Source of the DNA: an uncultured Spartobacteria bacterium
GTDB taxonomy: Bacteria; Verrucomicrobiota; Verrucomicrobiia; Chthoniobacterales; UBA6821
DNA length: 36,380 nucleotides
Reading direction: 5' to 3'
Assembly (NCBI GenBank): GCA_903868795.1
Contig: CAIPWR010000056.1
Location: 1-36,380, forward strand
Positions within the stretch are counted from its first letter, which is position 1. Every line of letters starts with the position of its first letter. Positions 3,911 to 31,765 of this stretch are shown one piece after another. Made by a program: the position numbers and the translations under genes. The notes under the pieces are model-generated. The model did not search any database. It had not been told where the DNA came from and was given only the letters and a program-made list of their open reading frames with translations.

Positions 3911-3968
3911 GGGCAATTTTTAGGCCCGAACAACCTTCAGGTTGTTCGGCTTCAGTCTTTGGGCGAGC
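3911..3968 (+). terminator. Hairpin between convergent rhlE and 3968-4558, and possible third copy of the 3' element
   Basis: CCGAACAACC (3926-3935) and GGTTGTTCGG (3940-3949) form a perfect 10-bp stem with a TTCA loop. No run of T follows on either strand, so if it is a terminator it is not a classic one. It is preceded by GGGC...GCCC (3911-3927) and followed by CTTCAGTCTTTGGGC, which matches the last part of the repeat found after nusG and nrdB (see 18584 and 27459). Confidence 0.55.
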
Positions 3969-4558
3969 TAGTGCGCTCCCTGCAGGACGATCTCGGTGAC
4001 GCTGGGTTGCTGTGAGGTCTTGCCCGGATAGATCTCGTCGATGGTGAGTTCGATCAGATCACCCTGATTGAGCATGATATCCTCGAAGTGGAAGTCTTGC
4101 CAACGCCAGGTATCCGCGAGATGAAAGCGGGCGATCGCTTTGTGATTTACGCTGAGGGTCATGGTCTTCACTCGGGCATAGGCGCGGAATTCCTCGAGCG
4201 TTCGGATTACTCCATTGGCAATGTTGATTCCGTAGAAAGGGGTGTCTCGGCAATCCTTGGGGAGTTTCTTGGGAATGTGGAATTGGATGATTTCTCCCGG
4301 TCCAGAAGTCGGAGAAATCCATGCGGTCGTAGCATCATCATCGCAGAGTTCGGAAGCCGGCTTCAGCGTGGAGATTGAGTTCCCCGCAAGTGTCTCCCAG
4401 AAGAAGGCGCAACGGAGCGAGCACCCTCCCATCAGTTCCTGGAGAACGGGATCTCCCACCTTCGGTTTTAGCAGGGGGAGCGAGTCGGCGTGAACAGATG
4501 ATGAGATCGCAACAAGAGCTAGGAGGCTCCATGCTGCGCGGACGGATTTCAGGCGCAC
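3968..4558 (-). CDS. Secreted discoidin-like protein (NADase-type glycan-binding fold)
   Basis: 196 residues with a GTG start and a signal peptide (hydrophobic LLALVAISSSVHA, cut near residue 25). The body has DDDATTAWISPTSGPGEIIQF, a later INIANGVIRTLEEFRAYARVK and a C-terminal LIELTIDEIYPG-VTEIVL. This order, Asp-x-x-x-x-TaW, GE-I-x-F, then a N-G-x-x--Y--RVK strand, is characteristic of the discoidin-like domains called NADase-type glycan-binding, found in many secreted bacterial proteins. Expected to bind a sugar or surface ligand outside the cytoplasm; there is no catalytic module. It follows the metal-binding protein gene by 14 bp on the same strand, so the two are probably co-transcribed. 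Two Cys at about residues 46 and 50 could form a disulfide. Confidence 0.6.
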   Translation of the reverse strand: MRLKSVRAAWSLLALVAISSSVHADSLPLLKPKVGDPVLQELMGGCSLRCAFFWETLAGNSISTLKPASELCDDDATTAWISPTSGPGEIIQFHIPKKLPKDCRDTPFYGINIANGVIRTLEEFRAYARVKTMTLSVNHKAIARFHLADTWRWQDFHFEDIMLNQGDLIELTIDEIYPGKTSQQPSVTEIVLQGAH

Positions 4559-4572
4559 GATTCGCTCAACCC

Positions 4573-5457
4573 TTATTTCAACCCATTCACGATGGCAGAC
4601 ACATTATGCCTCATCATCAAGTCGTAAGTGTTCCCTTCGGCCTCGCCGAGTCCGTCGGAGTAGAGTGAGGCGCCGGCCTTTGCGCCCGTCTCATCGGCTA
4701 TTTGCTGGACGGCTCGGGGATTCTCAATGGTCTCAAAGAAGATCGCCTTCACCCCCTGATCCTTGATGACACCGATGATCTCCTTCACATGCTGGGAGGA
4801 GGGATCCTCCGCGGTGCTCACACCCTTCACTGGATAGATGGTGAAGTCGTAGTCACGAGCGAAGTATCCGAGCGCATCGTGCGAGGTGATCAACTTCCTT
4901 CGGTCGTGGGGTAGTGAGGCGAGTTTTACCCGGATCCAGCGCTCAAGTTCATCGAGTTTGGCGAGATAGGCGGACGCGTTCTTATCGTAGCTGCTGGCAT
5001 TGGCAGGGTCGGCTTTCTCGAAGGCTTCCGCGACCACGCGGGTAGCTCCTTTCATGTTCTCCACGCTGTGCCACCAGTGGGGATCCTCCACCTTCTTCCC
5101 CTGCTCGGTCATCGTGAGTGAGGGGATATCCTTGCCCACGTTCACAAACTTGGCGGAGCCACCGGCGGCCTCCTCCAGTTTCGAGAGATAACCCTCCATC
5201 CCTTTGCCTGTCAGGAGCACGAGATTGGCGTCTGCGACTTTCTTCACATCACCAGGCGTCGGTTCGAACTCATGGGGATCGATGCCAGCCTTAATGATTC
5301 CCTCCACGTTCACGTGATTGCCCCCGATCTGCTTCGCAAGATCTGTCGTCACCGTTGAAAGGGAGGCCACGCGCAGGTCCGCGCGGGTGGACGACATGCC
5401 AACCAAGAGGATCATGAGCGAGGCTAGGAGCTTTCTGAAGTGACAAAATAATTTCAT
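4573..5457 (-). CDS. Metal ABC transporter substrate-binding protein (TroA/ZnuA, cluster A-I)
   Basis: 294 residues with a signal peptide (LLASLMILLVGMSSTRA). The cluster A-I fold signatures are present: GIDPHEFEPTPGDV (first His ligand), DPHWWHSVENM (second His), TSHDALGYFARDY (third His) and ASLYSDGLG (Asp). This His-His-His-Asp set is that of TroA/ZnuA-like zinc or manganese binders rather than the PsaA type, which has Glu at the third place. There is no His-rich acidic loop, which is often found in ZnuA. The permease and ATPase genes are not next to it, so the partner transporter must be elsewhere. A perfect 7-bp inverted repeat sits at the promoter (5476-5499), suggesting metal-dependent repression. 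Confidence 0.88.
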   Translation of the reverse strand: MKLFCHFRKLLASLMILLVGMSSTRADLRVASLSTVTTDLAKQIGGNHVNVEGIIKAGIDPHEFEPTPGDVKKVADANLVLLTGKGMEGYLSKLEEAAGGSAKFVNVGKDIPSLTMTEQGKKVEDPHWWHSVENMKGATRVVAEAFEKADPANASSYDKNASAYLAKLDELERWIRVKLASLPHDRRKLITSHDALGYFARDYDFTIYPVKGVSTAEDPSSQHVKEIIGVIKDQGVKAIFFETIENPRAVQQIADETGAKAGASLYSDGLGEAEGNTYDLMMRHNVSAIVNGLK

Positions 5458-5465
5458 GTCTGAAG

Positions 5466-5499
5466 TATTCTAATTTAGTCAAAAAGCACCCCTTGACTA
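5466..5499 (-). promoter_or_regulatory. Promoter and palindromic operator of the metal-binding protein gene
   Basis: TAGTCAA (5476-5482) and TTGACTA (5493-5499) form a perfect inverted repeat with a 10-bp spacer. On the minus strand a TAGAAT hexamer (5467-5472) follows directly and could be the -10 box, about 10-15 bp before the ATG at 5457. A repressor bound to the repeat would cover the -35 region. Mn- or Zn-sensing regulators (MntR/DtxR, Zur) often act this way, but the sequence alone does not say which. Confidence 0.4.
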
Positions 5500-5575
5500 T
5501 CAGTTAAGCGCTGACTCTGACAGATCTTTTTCCAGACGGGGCTGGATTCCTTTGGAGGATTCCTTTAACGAAACC

Positions 5576-6958
5576 ATGTCCATGCAATTCCGCTTTATCT
5601 CAATCATTCTGTTTTGTGGCCTGTTGGCAATAGATGGACTGCTTGCCGATCCGATCGATCTTTCCAATCCATTCAATATCCTCACCCAGCAACGACTCGC
5701 CGGAGAGTTCCTTGGCTACAGGCCGAAGGCTGAGACAAACGGTGTCGTTCTCTCGCTCCAGTCCGTCTCCGACCTGCTTGGCAATACCAAGGGCGGAGAA
5801 CTTCAGGGTGGCACCTACTCCGGACTCCTGAACTTTGGCCTCGCTGTCGATCTTCAGAAGGCGGTGGGCTGGGAGGGTGCTTCTCTCAAAAACACCTGGC
5901 TCTGGCTCTACGGAAATGATGTCTCGTCGAAATTCATCGGAAATTCCCTCACGGCAAGCAGTATCGCCGGCCGGCCAGCCTTCCGGTGCTACGAACTCTG
6001 GCTTCAGCAGAATCTGCTCCATGATGCCATCTCCCTACGCGGTGGCATGATACCCGTCGACACCGAGTTCATGGTTTCCGACACGGCAAATCTTTTTGTC
6101 AACAGCACCTTCGGCCCTCCCGCTGTGTTCACCATGAACATGCCCAACGGCGGTCCCACCTATCCGATGGCGACTCCCGGACTCCGCTTGGCGCTTCAGC
6201 CCAGCTCATGGCTCACCCTCCGAAGCGCCTTCACCCAGGGGAATCCCTTTTCACAGCAGGACAACAAATACGGCTTTGACTGGAACTTCGGTCAGGCCGG
6301 GGGACTCCTCAATATCAACGAAGCCGAAGCCGACTGGTGCAAGGATGCCTCCTCGAAAGGATTGCCCGGCTATGCCAAGGCAGGTTTCTGGTTCCAGACC
6401 GGACAGGGGCAGCAGGGTGGGGAGGAGCAGTTTAATTTTGGATCTCCAAACTCCAGCGCCTACAACAACGGCTTCTACGGCATCATCGATCAGAAGCTCT
6501 ATGTCGTTCAGGAAAAAGCCTCTGCTTCCCCCGATAAGAATGGTGACTCAGGAAAGGCCCCTGTATCTCCCGAAGCCTCCCAGGCATCCTCCTGCAGCTG
6601 CTCCTCGAAAGGACTCTCCTCCTTCGCCCGCATCGGATTTTCTCCAGATCAGAGCAGCATCGTCGGCTTCTACACCGACATGGGCCTCACCTACACCGGA
6701 CTGATCCCGACACGCGATGCCGATAAGCTCGGGGTTGCCTTTGGTTTTGCGCAGATGGGTTGTCAATGTAAGCAGAGCTATCAGGATAATGGCGCCCCCG
6801 GTTGCGGTTATGAGTCCGTGGCCGAATTGACTTACTCGATGCGTCTAGCCCCTGCGATCGCCATCCAGCCTGATCTCCAGTACATCATGCACCCTGGCGG
6901 AACCCAGCAGAATGGGAATGCTCTCGTGGTGGGGATGCGTGCTGTGGTGGATTTTTAA
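5576..6958 (+). CDS. OprB-family outer-membrane porin
   Basis: 460 residues from the ATG at 5576; the next ATG at 5582 is equally possible, and a TTG at 5552 would add residues before the signal peptide. The signal peptide is FRFISIILFCGLLAIDGLLA. The body has the OprB (carbohydrate-selective porin) pattern: GGTYSGLLNFGLAVDLQKAVGWEG, LRGGMIPVDTEFMVSD, FVNSTFGPP, many alternating strands, and a closing Val-Val-Asp-Phe with the C-terminal Phe typical of outer-membrane barrels. Residues around 325-350 are a Ser/Pro-rich insertion with a Cys-Ser-Cys-Ser-Ser cluster, which is odd for a barrel strand and probably a loop. The natural substrate is unknown. Divergent from the metal-binding protein gene. 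Confidence 0.8.
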   Translation: MSMQFRFISIILFCGLLAIDGLLADPIDLSNPFNILTQQRLAGEFLGYRPKAETNGVVLSLQSVSDLLGNTKGGELQGGTYSGLLNFGLAVDLQKAVGWEGASLKNTWLWLYGNDVSSKFIGNSLTASSIAGRPAFRCYELWLQQNLLHDAISLRGGMIPVDTEFMVSDTANLFVNSTFGPPAVFTMNMPNGGPTYPMATPGLRLALQPSSWLTLRSAFTQGNPFSQQDNKYGFDWNFGQAGGLLNINEAEADWCKDASSKGLPGYAKAGFWFQTGQGQQGGEEQFNFGSPNSSAYNNGFYGIIDQKLYVVQEKASASPDKNGDSGKAPVSPEASQASSCSCSSKGLSSFARIGFSPDQSSIVGFYTDMGLTYTGLIPTRDADKLGVAFGFAQMGCQCKQSYQDNGAPGCGYESVAELTYSMRLAPAIAIQPDLQYIMHPGGTQQNGNALVVGMRAVVDF

Positions 6959-6982: not shown

Positions 6983-7726
6983 ATGGAACTTCAGGACGTC
7001 ATGAAAAGGAGTGACCGCGATGCCGCGGATGTCCGCGAATTCTTCAATGGCTGGTCGCTTTACCGACGAATCGTCGATCATGATTACCTCTACCATCGCT
7101 CGGCCAGGGAAGCGCTTACAGCATGGCTGGATGCGTGGGTGAAGGATGCCAATCGTTCGTTCAGTTTCCTCGATCTCGGATGCGGCGATGCCGCATTTAG
7201 CACCGGTGTCTTGAAAGGAAGAAACGTGGCTGCCTACACAGGGATGGATCTCTCCCCCGTTGCCCTCGATCTGGCCCGCGAGAACACCGCTGAAATCGCC
7301 GCGCCCGTCGCCCTGATGCCGGGTGATTTTATGTTGGAAATCGGAAAGCTTCCTGCCGCCTACGACATCGTCTACATTGGACTCTCGCTGCATCATCTCT
7401 CCCGTCAGGAGAAGGAATACTTTTTCAGCGAACTCCGCCGCAAAATCGCTCCGGGAGGTGCCGTTCTGATCTTTGACCCAGTTCTCACTCCCGGTGAGTC
7501 CCGCGAATCCTACATGGGTCGCTGGGTCGATTATGCCGAGTGGTCATGGAAGGCACTTTCAGTGGAGGAGATCGCGGGGGCAGTCCAGCATGTCACCAGC
7601 TCTGATTTTCCCGAAGAGGTGGCCACCTTGAACAGGATGGCTGTCGGGTCGGGATTCCGTCCGGCAGAGATTCTCTTTATGGATCACACCGACTTCTACG
7701 CCCTCATGGCCTTCCAGTTGGCGTAG
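6983..7726 (+). CDS. Class I SAM-dependent methyltransferase
   Basis: 247 residues. The SAM-binding motif I FLDLGCGDAAFS lies at about residues 58-69, motif II YTGMDLSPVALDLA at about 81-94, an acidic PGDF stretch near 113, and motif IV YDIVYIGLSLHHLS at about 125-138, followed by LRRKIAPGGAVLIFDPVL (post-motif). This is the Methyltransf_11/25 type Rossmann fold of ordinary length. The substrate cannot be read from the sequence: the His-His in motif IV is common in small-molecule and lipid methyltransferases. It lies 24 bp after the porin and 55 bp before the channel gene, all co-directional, so a shared transcript is possible, but no common function is apparent. Confidence 0.8.
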   Translation: MELQDVMKRSDRDAADVREFFNGWSLYRRIVDHDYLYHRSAREALTAWLDAWVKDANRSFSFLDLGCGDAAFSTGVLKGRNVAAYTGMDLSPVALDLARENTAEIAAPVALMPGDFMLEIGKLPAAYDIVYIGLSLHHLSRQEKEYFFSELRRKIAPGGAVLIFDPVLTPGESRESYMGRWVDYAEWSWKALSVEEIAGAVQHVTSSDFPEEVATLNRMAVGSGFRPAEILFMDHTDFYALMAFQLA

Positions 7727-7781: not shown

Positions 7782-8810
7782 ATGCAACTCATGAAGCTCT
7801 CTAGGTTTTTACTGCTGGCTGGCGTTCTTTTTCTACTCCTCCCGGGATCCCTCAATGCGGATTCGACGAAAAAAACAGCAACCGCCTCTCCCGTGTTGTC
7901 TCCCGGTCCGGAACTGGTGGAGGTCGGAGTCTGGCCCATGGTCATCTACAATCTCGATGTCCACTCGAATACCTACTACATGACCGCCTATGTCTGGTTC
8001 GTCTGGAGGGGAAATCTGGATCCGAGCGAAACAGCCGAGTTTACAAACAATGTGGAGTCGTGGGGTTTCACCCGGGTCAAGACCTATCCCAAGCCAATCA
8101 CCTTCCCAGACGGAAGCCACTATCAGTGCCTGCGAATCGAGGGACGTTTCTTCCAGCCCTTCAGTCTGAAGCGCTTTCCGCTGGAGCATCATACCGTCGC
8201 CCTTTCCATCGAGGACAACACCTATGCCGCCGACAAAATCCTCTATCGCTTTGATCAGAAAAATTCCGGCTTAGATAGTTCCTTGAATATCCCGGGATGG
8301 ACGATCAAGAAATGGACGGGAACGGCAGGCATTCATCACTACCCCACAAATCTGGGTGATTTGAGCCTCGGTTCTGGCGGTTCCGATTATGGGACGATCC
8401 AGTTTCAGGTTGAGGTCAGCAGGCCTGTAAACTTCTTCCTCTGGAAGATGATGCTGCCCGTTTTGATCATCCTTGTGGCCACATGGACGGCACTGCTGCT
8501 TCATCCCACGCAATTGGCTTCACGCGTTGCGTTGACCGGAACAGCCTTGCTGACAACGGTCTTTCTCGAGCAGGGATACTCTTCAAATCTCCCCGAGGTG
8601 AACTACCTCGTCCTGATGGACAAGATCTATGTGGTACTTTACCTCCTCATCATCGCCTCCCTGATTCAGGTGGTTATTCAGGGAGCGCTGGAAAAGAAAC
8701 ACCAGCTCAACGAATTCCGAAAAGCTCAGTTGCTAGACAAGATCAGCGTCGCTCTTCAGGCGGTCATCTTCATTCTCGCGCTTATCTTCATCAATGCTAC
8801 GACGCATTGA
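7782..8810 (+). CDS. Pentameric ligand-gated ion channel homologue (GLIC/ELIC-like, Cys-loop superfamily fold)
   Basis: 342 residues: signal peptide ([16 protein letters not shown], cut near residue 26), an extracellular beta-sandwich (about 45-213) and four membrane helices (M1 ~218-240, M2 ~247-264, M3 ~275-300, M4 ~319-337). Marker features are the F-P-L-E motif in the Cys-loop region (132-135), the aromatic-rich strands [16 protein letters not shown], the [17 protein letters not shown] entry to M1 with its conserved Pro, and the N-L-P turn in the M2-M3 loop (269-271). As in other bacterial members the two Cys of the eukaryotic Cys loop are missing; the domain has one Cys (116). Bacterial members open in response to protons (GLIC) or amines (ELIC); the ligand here is unknown. 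The M2 segment is Thr/Ala/Leu-rich, so ion selectivity is hard to predict. Confidence 0.85.
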
Positions 8811-8836
8811 AATGCGCTGAAAATAGGGGATCCCAC

Positions 8837-8910
8837 CGGAGTTGACGGGGCTCGAACCCGCAACCCCCGCCGTGACAGGGCGGTGCTCTGACCAATTGAG
8901 CTACAACTCC
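8837..8910 (-). tRNA. tRNA-Asp (GTC)
   Basis: On the minus strand the sequence folds into a complete cloverleaf: acceptor GGAGTTG/CAACTCC, D arm GCTC/GAGC, anticodon arm CCGCC-CTGTCAC-GGCGG with anticodon GTC, five-base variable loop, and T arm with loop TTCGAGC. Discriminator base is G, as is usual for tRNA-Asp. The 3' CCA is not encoded. Lies alone between the channel gene and the ubiD-type gene, in the opposite orientation. Confidence 0.95.
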
Positions 8911-9022
8911 AGGGATTTCTCGGAGAACTCCGAGGGGTTGTAATCATCCACGCATTCGCGTTTGGGGCAATCTTTTTTGTGACTTTCCTGCAGTTGCGAG
9001 TCATTCTCCCATTTATATCGCC

Positions 9023-10492
9023 ATGGCTTATCCATCCTATGCCGCCTTCCTGAAGGCTCTTGAAGAAGCCGGAGAACTCCGGCGCATCACCGAACCCGTG
9101 GCCACGGAACTCCAGATCACGGAGCTTGCCGATCGCGAGATGAAGTCGCCGGAGGGAGGGAAGGCGCTGCTCTTCGAGAAGCCGACAATCAACGGCAAGA
9201 TCTCCGCTTTTCCCGTGGCGATCAATGCCCTGGGATCGAAGCGTCGTATGGCGATGGCTCTCGGACTCGACTCTGTCGATGAGCTGGCTGGTCAACTTGA
9301 GTTCCTGATGAAGGCCAAACCGCCGAAGAGCTTTGCCGATGCCATGAAGCTCCTGCGTAACGGGATCGACCTGATTCATGCACGCCCCCGCACGGTGAAG
9401 AGTGCCCCTTGCCACGAGGTCATCAATCGCATCGGTGAGGGGAATGCAGGTGAGCTCTTCTCCCTCGACCAGCTCCCGATCCTCAAGTGCTGGCCTCAGG
9501 ATGGAGGCCGATTCATCACGCTGCCGACTGTTTATACTAAGGATCCCGATACAGGTGAGAGGAATGTCGGCATGTACCGCATCCAGATTTACGATGGCCA
9601 GACCACCGGGATGCACTGGCAGGTTCACAAGGTCGGGGCCCGTCACGGGAAGCGCTACTACGAGCGAGGGGAGAAGATGCCGGTGGCCATCTGCCTCGGT
9701 GGAGACCCTGCCTTCACCCTGGCGGCCACGGCTCCGCTGCCTGATGGAATTGATGAGATTCTCTTTGCCGGATTCGCCCGTAAGAAGTCGGTCGATCTCG
9801 TCAAGTGCGTGACCCAGCCGCTGGAGGTGCCGGCCGAGAGTGACTTTGTCATCGAGGGATATGTTCAGCCCGGCGAGATGCGTCCCGAAGGGCCCTTCGG
9901 CGACCATACGGGATTCTATACGCCGGTGGATGACTATCCTGTTTTCCATGTGACGGCGATCACCCACCGCAAGGACGCGATCTACCCGTGCACCATCGTC
10001 GGGGTCCCCCCGATGGAGGATTTCTACATGGGGGAGGCAAGCGTCCGGATCTTCTTGCCGATCTTCAAGATGAATTTCCCGGAGATCGTCGATATGGCGC
10101 TTCCGGCCGAGGGAACTTTCCACAACCTCGTCTTTGTTTCGATCAAGAAGCAGTACCCTTGGCAGGCCTTTAAGGTCATGCACGGCCTTTGGGGAATGGG
10201 ACAGATGATGTTTGCGAAATACATCGTCGTGGTGGATCACGACTGCGATGTGCAGAACACCTCGGAAGTCCTCTTCCGATGGATGGCGAATACCGATCCT
10301 CAGCGCGATAGCATCCTGACCAAGAACCCGCTGGATAGTCTCGACCATGCCCCGACTGTTCCCAACATGGGTGGTCACATGGGCTTCGATGCCACCAAAA
10401 AAATCCCCGGAGAGGGCTACACCCGTGGTTGGCCGGATCTCGTGACCATGGATCCCGCAACAAAAGCCTGGGCGGATGGCTTTAGGGGATAG
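9023..10492 (+). CDS. UbiD-family decarboxylase (prenylated-FMN dependent)
   Basis: 489 residues, the usual UbiD length. Family features: MYRIQIYDGQTTGMHWQ with the catalytic Arg region near residue 188, EGPFGDHTGFYTP near residue 292 with the catalytic Glu/Asp pair, and a C-terminal domain with LWGMGQMMFAKYIVVVDHDCDVQN and the Gly-x-x-Asp-Ala-T-K-K segment. Such enzymes decarboxylate aromatic or alpha,beta-unsaturated acids in ubiquinone, menaquinone (futalosine route) or other pathways, using prenyl-FMN made by a UbiX partner. No ubiX gene is in the window. Verrucomicrobia commonly make menaquinone, so a role there is plausible but not shown. No Shine-Dalgarno sequence before the ATG. Confidence 0.88.
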   Translation: MAYPSYAAFLKALEEAGELRRITEPVATELQITELADREMKSPEGGKALLFEKPTINGKISAFPVAINALGSKRRMAMALGLDSVDELAGQLEFLMKAKPPKSFADAMKLLRNGIDLIHARPRTVKSAPCHEVINRIGEGNAGELFSLDQLPILKCWPQDGGRFITLPTVYTKDPDTGERNVGMYRIQIYDGQTTGMHWQVHKVGARHGKRYYERGEKMPVAICLGGDPAFTLAATAPLPDGIDEILFAGFARKKSVDLVKCVTQPLEVPAESDFVIEGYVQPGEMRPEGPFGDHTGFYTPVDDYPVFHVTAITHRKDAIYPCTIVGVPPMEDFYMGEASVRIFLPIFKMNFPEIVDMALPAEGTFHNLVFVSIKKQYPWQAFKVMHGLWGMGQMMFAKYIVVVDHDCDVQNTSEVLFRWMANTDPQRDSILTKNPLDSLDHAPTVPNMGGHMGFDATKKIPGEGYTRGWPDLVTMDPATKAWADGFRG

Positions 10493-27578: not shown

Positions 27579-27622
27579 GGATTTCCTCCCCGAGACCCCG
27601 TGGTTTTGCCATGGGGAAATCC
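27579..27622. other. Nested palindrome between nrdB and the toxin-antitoxin genes
   Basis: Outer arms GGATTTCC (27579-27586) and GGAAATCC (27615-27622) pair perfectly; inside them CCCCGTGG (27596-27603) and CCATGGGG (27609-27616) form an 8-bp stem with a TTTTG loop. The two stems share bases at 27615-27616, so they are alternatives or a slightly trimmed nest. Confidence 0.5.
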
Positions 27623-27632
27623 ACCCAGAGGC

Positions 27633-27658
27633 AGCCCGCAATCGTAAGATTGTGGGCT
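27633..27658 (+). terminator. Hairpin downstream of nrdB
   Basis: AGCCCGCAATC (27633-27643) and GATTGTGGGCT (27648-27658) form an 11-bp stem (one G-T pair) with a GTAA loop, followed by GTTCCTTTG. Strong stem with a poor T-tract; probably the 3' boundary of the nrdAB transcript. Confidence 0.5.
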
Positions 27659-27735
27659 GTTCCTTTGAGGTTCTCAGATACAAGGGCGCCACCGCTTACT
27701 GGGAAGGAAATGGAATGGGCAATCCTTGCGGAAAT

Positions 27736-27755
27736 ACTGATATTCAGTAATACTG
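27736..27755 (+). promoter_or_regulatory. Palindromic operator of the toxin-antitoxin pair
   Basis: ACTGA-TAT-TCAGT (27736-27748) is a perfect palindrome, followed by a further TACTG half-site (27751-27755), ending 5 bp before the antitoxin ATG. AbrB-type antitoxins usually bind such repeats to control their own operon. Confidence 0.5.
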
Positions 27756-27760
27756 CAAAT

Positions 27761-28006
27761 ATGACAAAGACCATTTCAGTCAGTGAACGGGGTACGCTTA
27801 CCTTGCCTAAAGAAGCTAGAAAGAGCCTTGGTATCCCCCAGGGAGGGCAATTGATTGTCGAGATGGACGAAGAGGGAGCTGTCACCCTACGGGCGGGGGC
27901 GCTCATGCCACTGGAAATCTATTCCAAGGCAAGGCTTGCGGAGTTTCAGCAGATGAATGAGGTGCCACTTGCCGGGAGGAAACTCCGCTGGAGTAAGAAA
28001 CGGTGA
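27761..28006 (+). CDS. AbrB/SpoVT-type antitoxin (VapB-like)
   Basis: 81 residues from ATG 27761. The N-terminal swapped-hairpin DNA-binding domain is plain: TISVSERGTLTLPKEARKSLG and then IPQGGQLIVEMDEEGAVTLR (about residues 3-45). The C-terminal half (PLEIYSKARLAEFQQMNE) is the likely toxin-binding arm, ending in a basic GRKLRWSKKR. It overlaps the PIN toxin gene by four bases (GTGA), as in typical toxin-antitoxin pairs, and a palindrome lies in its promoter. The upstream frame to 27611 is non-coding by context. Confidence 0.85.
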   Translation: MTKTISVSERGTLTLPKEARKSLGIPQGGQLIVEMDEEGAVTLRAGALMPLEIYSKARLAEFQQMNEVPLAGRKLRWSKKR

Positions 28007-28419
28007 GAGTCTTCCTTGATGCGAATATTCTCTTCTCCGCCTCTCTACCCAAGAGTCATCTCGCTCTCTTTCTGGAGGGATTGGCAGAGCAAGCCGATCT
28101 GTTGAGTAATCTCTATGCGTGCGAAGAAGCCGCAAGAAATCTGACAGCCAAGTTTCCGAAGAGCCTACCTGCTTTTCAAAAGCTCTGCCGAGTGATCGAA
28201 CTCGTTCCCATGGGGATCTTCGATCCCGGGGTGGAGATTGCGGTGAAGGATCAGCCCATTCTCTGCGGAGCCATTGCTGCTGAGGCAGATTATCTTCTGA
28301 CAGGAGATAAAAAGGACTTCGGCCATCTCTTCGGAAGGTGCGTAAGTGGAGTTACCGTGGTCAGCGTGGAGCTTCTGCTGAGAGAACTGGTTGATCAGGG
28401 AATGCTGAAGGAACCTTAG
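28003..28419 (+). CDS. PIN-domain toxin (VapC-like ribonuclease)
   Basis: 138 residues with a GTG start inside the antitoxin stop. The PIN fold is shown by VFLDANILFSAS (Asp6), the ACEEAARN segment (Glu41/Glu42), and AEADYLLTGDKKDFGHL (Asp96, Asp102, Asp105). These acidic residues bind Mg/Mn for RNA cleavage. The YLLTGDKKDF form is that of the COG1569/PIN_3-like branch rather than classical VapC. With the AbrB-type antitoxin it should form a type II module; the RNA target is unknown. Confidence 0.85.
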   Translation: MRVFLDANILFSASLPKSHLALFLEGLAEQADLLSNLYACEEAARNLTAKFPKSLPAFQKLCRVIELVPMGIFDPGVEIAVKDQPILCGAIAAEADYLLTGDKKDFGHLFGRCVSGVTVVSVELLLRELVDQGMLKEP

Positions 28420-30614: not shown

Positions 30615-31160
30615 TCAGCGCAGAAATGTCCAACTGATCACTCCTGCCGCGCCCATCATCAGGACAGGGTTAATCTTGGTGAAGAGCATCAGGGCGAGGG
30701 CCACCAACCCCATGAGTGCCGTCGGCACCGAGTGAATCGAGGTCTTCGCGATGATCCAGGTCGCAGCGAGGATCAGGCCGGTGGAGACCGGCATCATGGC
30801 GCGCTCCACGGTATGCCGCCATGGGGACTCCTTCCACTCGTCCCAGAACTTGCTGACGACAAAGACCAGAATCGAGCTCGGCAGGAACATCGCGATTGTT
30901 GCGATCAGTGCACCTAGGAGGGCGACGGCCGTGCCGTAGGGGAGGCAGGCCTTCAGGCCGACCAACGAGACCACCATCATCGAGGGGCCGGGAGCGGCCA
31001 TGCTGATCGAGAAGAGATCGACGAACTGCTGGTTGCTCATCCAGTGATACTCCCCGACCGAGGCCTGATGCATCGAGGGGAGCACCACCTTCCCTCCACC
31101 GAAGGCTGAGATCGAGAGTGCCGAAAAGAGGCCGGCCAGTTGGAGGAGGGTCTTGATCAT
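30615..31160 (-). CDS. chrA: Chromate transporter, short form (second half-subunit)
   Basis: 181 residues, five or six membrane helices. The CHR domain signature is SAFGGGKVVLPSMHQ (about 18-32), followed by QQFVDLFSISMAAPGPSMMV with the conserved Pro-Gly-Pro. It is half the size of the two-domain ChrA proteins and is encoded together with a second CHR gene, overlapping it by four bases. Such pairs (Chr1N/Chr1C-like) work together, with the halves in opposite membrane orientation. Named for chromate efflux; the natural role may be another oxyanion. Confidence 0.88.
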   Translation of the reverse strand: MIKTLLQLAGLFSALSISAFGGGKVVLPSMHQASVGEYHWMSNQQFVDLFSISMAAPGPSMMVVSLVGLKACLPYGTAVALLGALIATIAMFLPSSILVFVVSKFWDEWKESPWRHTVERAMMPVSTGLILAATWIIAKTSIHSVPTALMGLVALALMLFTKINPVLMMGAAGVISWTFLR

Positions 31161-31765
31161 GGTTTAGTGCTTTCTACCGCCCCCTCTTGCACGGGACGGG
31201 GACGATGCCACCAGATGGCCAGCGGTGCCATGATCAGGATCACATAAGGGACATGGAGATGAGCGAAGCGGACGAGCGCAAAAGTGAGCAGAATCAGGAC
31301 GATGTCGAAGACCCCTCGGATGGCCTTCTGACCCGCCTCAAAAACCATACTGGCCATCAGTCCGCAGGCGGTGGCCGTGATTCCGGCGAGTACGGCCCGT
31401 GTGTCGGTGGTTTTACCCGCATGGAAGTAGAGAAATCCAAGGATGCAAACCAGAATAAAGGGGGGTATCAGGATCGATGTGAGGGCCACCACTGCACCGA
31501 GGGGGCCGCGTAAATGATTGCCGATATAGATTGAGAGGCCGGCCACATTCGCTCCCGGCAGGATCTGGACAAGGGCGAGTCCCGGCAGGAACTCCTCGTC
31601 GGTCAGCCACTGCTTCTGGCCCACGACCAGCCTGCGGATGTAGGCGGTCAGCCCCCCCCCGAAGCTTGTGATTCCGATGAATCCGAAGAGACCGGCAATC
31701 TCGATCAGAGAAACCCGCTTTCGGGGTCTTCCCTGATCGTTAGGATTTGGGGCTTCCCCCGGCAT
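31157..31765 (-). CDS. chrA: Chromate transporter, short form (first half-subunit)
   Basis: 202 residues. A basic, polar N-terminus is followed by IAGLFGFIGITSFGGGLTAYI (CHR signature, about 22-42) and EEFLPGLALVQILPGANVAGLSIYIG (Pro-Gly-Ala in place of Pro-Gly-Pro). About five helices follow, then a charged tail. First gene of the Chr pair; its ATG at 31765 lies inside the last 26 bases of the phospholipase D-like gene, so translation of all three is probably linked. Confidence 0.88.
   Translation of the reverse strand: MPGEAPNPNDQGRPRKRVSLIEIAGLFGFIGITSFGGGLTAYIRRLVVGQKQWLTDEEFLPGLALVQILPGANVAGLSIYIGNHLRGPLGAVVALTSILIPPFILVCILGFLYFHAGKTTDTRAVLAGITATACGLMASMVFEAGQKAIRGVFDIVLILLTFALVRFAHLHVPYVILIMAPLAIWWHRPRPVQEGAVESTKP

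Follow-up and report, generated by a model that had tools for sequence, protein, structure and literature searches.

A loop-A-less pentameric ligand-gated ion channel homologue encoded at an accessory site in a genus of uncultured Spartobacteria

Only a small number of bacterial pentameric ligand-gated ion channels (pLGICs) have been studied, and a gene in the genome of an uncultured Spartobacteria bacterium raised the question of how far a comparison with GLIC and ELIC would hold, that is, which kind of pLGIC was encoded, what could open it and which ions it may conduct. The window, meaning the whole stretch of 36,380 nucleotides that was analysed, had been credited in a preliminary description with a channel gene of this family. 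The reading frame was found exactly as placed, on the forward strand from an ATG to a stop codon, with the following features:

7782–8810, + strand: pLGIC subunit gene, 342 aa
7782–7859, + strand: probable signal peptide, residues 1–26
7911–8420, + strand: periplasmic beta-sandwich domain, approximately residues 44–213, without the hWxP/loop-A segment
8175–8186, + strand: Pro-loop FPLE at the Cys/Pro-loop position, residues 132–135, with R214 as predicted partner
8421–8423, + strand: pre-M1 Arg214
8427–8501, + strand: M1 helix, residues 216–240, with kink proline P226 (model and alignment)
8517–8585, + strand: M2 pore helix from -2' to 20', residues 246–268 (A-2', S-1', R0', A2', T6', L9', F13', Q16', S20')
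8586–8594, + strand: N-L-P of the M2-M3 loop, residues 269–271
8595–8696, + strand: M3 helix, residues 272–305 (AlphaFold2 model)
8712–8804, + strand: M4 helix, residues 311–341, after a short M3-M4 link (AlphaFold2 model)

Judged from its sequence, the protein is a bacterial pLGIC and a member of the pLGIC/Pro-loop receptor superfamily, as had been proposed. Among curated profiles it matched TIGR00860 (LIC, E 6.9e-17) and NF033918 (LGIC_1, E 9.8e-8), both under the curated cut-offs, and the Pfam Neur_chan models gave only 14.1 and 12.3 bits, also under their cut-offs. A genome search with PF02931 gave zero matches, even in the host genome that holds the channel gene, therefore this model is blind to the branch seen in the window. 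A phmmer search of the PDB with the channel protein retrieved GLIC and chimeras of GLIC with glycine or GABA-A receptor pore domains over residues 36–330, with a best E of 4e-18. The host genome held no second match to the protein, and this single copy suits a homopentamer.

The superfamily marks compared were the conserved residues in Table 1 of Jaiteh et al. 2016 (PMC4795631), where the proline of the [F/Y]PxD Pro-loop is the sole residue absolutely conserved in the superfamily and Glu takes the Asp position in 3% (PMC4795631). In the channel this loop reads F132, P133, L134 and E135, so that the proline was kept and Asp was replaced by Glu; E135 was fixed in the clade, and Asp stood in all 34 bacterial rows outside it. 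The beta9 aromatic W160, pre-M1 R192, P204 of M1 and P247 of the M2-M3 loop of GLIC were all kept, as W173, R214, P226 and P271, together with the basic 0' residue (R248) and Leu 9' (L257) of M2, which are common though non-universal marks. C116 was the sole Cys in the protein, and the disulfide pair that flanks the loop in animal receptors was absent.

The AlphaFold2 monomer model was of low confidence (mean pLDDT 53.5), with beta-sandwich strands and four C-terminal helices, and a second prediction with the mature chain alone gave no improvement (mean pLDDT 50.1). With the low-confidence model, Foldseek returned GLIC and glycine receptor structures at E ~1e-16 (4x5t, E 1.9e-16), and the VIA fold comparison gave Z 15 with an rmsd of 8.2 over 206 residues. 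The sandwich, the four helices, F-P-L-E at the Cys-loop position and the N-L-P turn between M2 and M3, all named in the preliminary description, were thus recovered, and the signal peptide is graded as probable from a hydrophobic N-terminus that formed a helix at residues 3–18 in the model. The channel is a new member of the family, ordinary in kind, and no unusual system.

The same description had credited the protein with the complete plan of GLIC/ELIC-like channels, which held for the kind of protein and failed for its extracellular domain, since the hWxP/loop-A segment was absent and loop C was longer with a different motif; of the walls that normally bound the ligand pocket, one is lacking and another extended. 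According to Tasneem et al. (PMC549065), the hWxP motif, located in loop A before strand 4, places GLIC, ELIC and a handful of others alongside the animal receptors and apart from the rest. The stretch from W72 to beta5 contained no WxP in the window protein or its orthologues, and it was 39 residues long in the window protein versus 50–61 in full-length channels of the hWxP type. Loop C was about 7–10 residues longer and carried a [ST]x[LF]G(D) motif:

8328–8390, + strand: extended loop C, residues 183–203, with the conserved motif at 8346–8360

Two architectures appeared among 51 distinct sequences, of which one was GLIC and the other 50 came from bacterial genomes and plasmids. One had WxP (loop A) with a short loop C, 26–35 residues from W173 to R214; the other, which included the window clade, had no WxP, and its loop C of 40–45 residues contained [ST]x[LFYMR]G, in most cases with D as the next residue. 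WxP alone was found in 24 sequences and the loop-C motif alone in 25, among them the members of the window clade and a duplicate of the window protein taken from a start farther upstream. One sequence had neither and one had both, so the two were mutually exclusive in 49/51; the sequences counted are related to each other, and the pattern could stem from a single event or a few. The sequence with neither (L018) was an N-terminally cut fragment, and in the one with both (L082) the match, SYYG, lay within an otherwise short loop C and is probably a chance match. The motif had been defined on the first alignment rows, before the later sequences were fetched, and the distant L085, fetched later, obeyed the rule with no WxP, a long loop C and, by eye, DTNFGIPD. 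When seven members of the hWxP-less class were aligned, the loop-C glycine (G192 of the window protein) was one of seven invariant columns. The hWxP split itself is already known from Tasneem et al. (PMC549065), and no mention of a loop-C element matching the loss of hWxP was found in the available portions of that paper or of Jaiteh et al. (PMC4795631).

The protein probably works in the inner membrane as a homopentameric ligand-gated ion channel, and it belongs to the bacterial pLGIC class without the hWxP (loop A) segment. ELIC, the amine-gated channel of Erwinia, shares its fold and is homologous to it over the pore domain and the lower part of the extracellular domain; ELIC belongs to the hWxP group (PMC549065), and the window protein has no loop-A segment. 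Alike in the extracellular domain were stand-alone hWxP-less channels (L017, L023, L026, L043, L047 and L050) with a long loop C and [ST]x[LFY]G, yet these lacked the M1 kink proline and had Phe at 9', whereas the window clade keeps a canonical pore domain. Absence of hWxP and of the M1 kink proline, with Phe or Ile at 9', was likewise observed in L034 and L037; both of these and L026 were encoded in congeners of the host. PDB searches with the stand-alone L050 and with L029, which is fused to a binding-protein domain, gave matches confined to the pore region and the lower part of the extracellular domain, and the only chains to which the window profile aligned over its full length were of the GLIC type. 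No close relative was returned for any of these three class members, therefore no solved structure of the loop-A-less extracellular type was found by these sequence searches.

The fused relatives raise another possibility for ligand capture. PBP-I-fused bacterial pLGICs are an architecture described by Tasneem et al. (PMC549065), and three hWxP-less proteins of Verrucomicrobiota genomes G022, G138 and G507 (L029, L031 and L040; open frames of 773, 763 and 723 aa) had a PBP-like N-terminal part before a loop-A-less pLGIC. They shared the loop-A-less extracellular domain, the loop-C motif and the M1 proline with the window protein, in which the binding-protein part is missing. If this domain had been lost, a periplasmic binding protein encoded elsewhere could capture the ligand for the channel, and separate PBP genes do adjoin bacterial pLGICs (Tasneem et al., PMC549065). 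The genes around the channel were as follows:

5552–6958, + strand: OprB-family porin, second upstream neighbour; the true start may be slightly downstream
6983–7726, + strand: class I SAM methyltransferase, upstream neighbour
8836–8911, - strand: tRNA-Asp (gtc), on the far side of the channel presence/absence site
9023–10492, + strand: UbiD-family decarboxylase, anchor of the conserved locus

ZnuA, of the zinc-uptake family, was the sole binding protein in the vicinity; its gene lay past the porin and methyltransferase genes and on the other strand. Only about 17 residues separated the signal peptide from the sandwich. In a midpoint-rooted tree of 36 sequences, the deep branches of which were uncertain, the window clade formed a long branch (1.34 changes per site, support 100/100), isolated outside the GLIC-type group and not united with the PBP-fused channels. 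A separate capturing protein is therefore considered unlikely, and binding by the channel itself is preferred.

A zinc/Zur link via the divergent znuA gene, prompted by an invariant His pair of the channel, was also considered and rejected, because in relatives a further gene separates znuA from the porin, and because the repeats that by eye resemble Fur/Zur sites are located at znuA and none at the porin. The extra gene lay within L001:1634-3860, was absent from 5400–5600 of the window, and was FTR1-like by eye in L001, with another gene in L002 and L006; the Fur/Zur-like repeats at znuA in relatives read TAATGATAATGATAA. Adjoining znuA in the window and conserved in L001, L002 and L006 was a reading frame for an exported-looking protein (3968–4558, - strand) with an F5/8-type C domain and a Pfam NADase_transloc match (PF25302, 1e-13). 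Farther away, a MazE-like antitoxin frame overlapped a PIN-domain-like frame by a few bases (27611–28419, + strand), possibly a toxin-antitoxin pair, and two short adjacent chromate-transporter genes formed a split ChrA pair (30615–31765, - strand).

The methyltransferase and porin named as neighbours in the preliminary description were both present upstream on the + strand. One operon with the OprB porin and the methyltransferase, for example a solute-uptake module, would be in keeping with their common strand, the gaps of 24 and 55 bases and an order kept in several congeners. The porin, methyltransferase, tRNA-Asp and ubiD genes nevertheless lay in the same order with the channel absent between them in G098, G044 and G110, the methyltransferase there standing beside tRNA-Asp, and in L006 no methyltransferase match occurred between porin and channel. 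Such an operon is accordingly quite improbable, and the neighbours tell little about channel function because their arrangement persists in congeners without the channel.

For the same reason, namely that the locus order persists channel-free in these three genomes, the channel is an accessory gene at this locus, gained or lost, around which the gene order was kept in congeners that have it. G036 (channel present) and G110 (channel absent) were close sisters in the ubiD tree, which fits a recent loss or gain. The orthologues, at 57–91% identity, were confined as far as found to a single genus of uncultured Spartobacteria, in 9/16 of its sampled genomes, with the reading frame intact in all. 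A search of viral contigs and phages for relatives of the channel gave none, and a plasmid search gave distant relatives only, in Azospirillum and Streptomyces; on the plasmid of Streptomyces sp. HUAS 14-6 (NZ_CP106796.1) an hWxP-less pLGIC (L052) was annotated as hypothetical protein. No paper was found in a literature search on Spartobacteria channels.

The channel might still be proton-gated and cation-selective, working exactly like GLIC. The Gloeobacter violaceus channel is the closest solved bacterial homologue over the full length (E ~1e-14) and has in common with the window protein the fold, the Pro-loop, the core coupling residues, the pre-M1 Arg, the M1 proline and the NLP M2-M3 loop. 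It differs in that the window protein has no hWxP/loop A, a longer loop C and none of the proton-sensing residues. E35 is the key proton sensor of GLIC, and E26, D32, E222, H235, E243 and H277 affect activation (Nemecz et al. 2017, PMC5760087). E26, D32, E35, D86, D88, E181, E222, H235, E243 and H277 of GLIC corresponded to V, V, N, R, T, Y, A, T, S and G in the window protein, with N63, A246, T259 and S267 as the equivalents of E35, E222, H235 and E243, which matter in GLIC (PMC5760087), E222 being also its -2' acid. Neither an acid nor a His was left at the ten positions, and the replacements were nearly all fixed in the orthologues, so GLIC-type proton gating appears unlikely, and a channel working like GLIC in full very unlikely. 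In place of protons, a small ligand may be bound by H185 and H186, both invariant, and TNLGD in loop C, which are candidate residues by conservation and position alone; the clade is small and made up of close relatives, and fixed residues may partly reflect shared ancestry.

The pore was also unlike that of GLIC. The acidic ring at -2'/-1' was absent from M2, the sole M2 acid, at 15', was replaced by Gln in four orthologues, and no acid stood at -2' or 19', with Leu 9' and Phe 13' versus Ile and Ala in GLIC; Phe 13' was specific to the clade among the rows compared. The M2 lining had been called different from GLIC, which it is, but an acid was also missing at -2'/-1' in 19/34 other bacterial rows, so that this trait was rejected as unique to the window channel. 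The transmembrane half alone matched glycine receptors best in the PDB (3e-8), with GLIC and ELIC behind (~1e-5). A GLIC-GlyR chimera was likewise the top match of one control bacterial channel, and ELIC was preferred by a second; with these controls, a glycine-receptor-like pore as a unique trait was weakened.

The alpha glycine receptor, an animal chloride-selective channel, was the best pore-domain match among solved structures and shared the acid-free -2'/-1', Arg 0', Thr 6', Leu 9' and an Asp in early M3. Against it, the window protein had no Cys-loop cysteine pair, Ala-Ser versus Pro-Ala before Arg 0', Phe 13', a very short M3-M4 link and no hWxP. An anion-selectivity motif with no acid at -1'/-2' and A-[R/K] has been described, which is generally insufficient to settle selectivity in prokaryotes (PMC4795631); the filter region of the window channel, A-S-R, has no acid but Ser instead of Ala at -1'. 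Because the acidic ring is absent, an anion-conducting or weakly selective pore would be more likely than a strongly cation-selective one, and the chances of anion or weak selectivity, and of true anion selectivity, are put at about even.

A decaying or non-conducting homologue would agree with the patchy presence in the genus and the empty sites, and the F13' ring could obstruct the pore. Such decay is highly improbable, as pairwise dN/dS between orthologues was 0.07–0.21, the frame was intact everywhere and the coupling residues were conserved; in addition, the GLIC mutant A237F, with Phe at the same position, was crystallised (3lsv), which shows folding and not conduction. The gene is best described as functional, being under purifying selection by these comparisons. 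A chemotaxis receptor steering flagellar swimming, a role proposed in general for bacterial pLGICs by Tasneem et al. (PMC549065) and supported by one MCP-like gene in the host genome, is disfavoured to the point of being hardly credible, with flagellin in 0/7 and MCP in 2/7 of the channel-bearing genomes, which are incomplete, while control genomes matched both families.

For the preferred ligand-gated channel, five copies would form the pentamer, and a small periplasmic ligand would bind between subunits in a pocket predicted to consist mainly of the long loop C, with His185-His186 and TNLGD. The signal could then pass from the E135-R214 pair to the Pro-loop and on to the NLP M2-M3 loop, and L9' and F13' might form the hydrophobic gate at which M2 opens. 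It is a tentative and rather doubtful further step that deletion of loop A, an extended loop C with [ST]x[LF]GD in its place and a glycine-receptor-like acid-free pore together make up a bacterial anion channel for a ligand class unlike that of GLIC and ELIC.

According to Jaiteh et al. (PMC4795631), none of the pLGICs of single-celled organisms has a known biological role, and anion-conducting bacterial members were predicted by Tasneem et al. (PMC549065). The solved structures found by sequence include GLIC, ELIC, DeCLIC, sTeLIC and animal receptors, and none covers the loop-A-less extracellular domain. The window channel is a compact sample of this structurally unstudied pLGIC branch and, being small, single-domain and signal-peptide-bearing with an intact pore domain, a practical target for expression. 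It could teach how the pocket of a pLGIC functions when loop A is missing, and whether anion conductors of this family are in use among bacteria.
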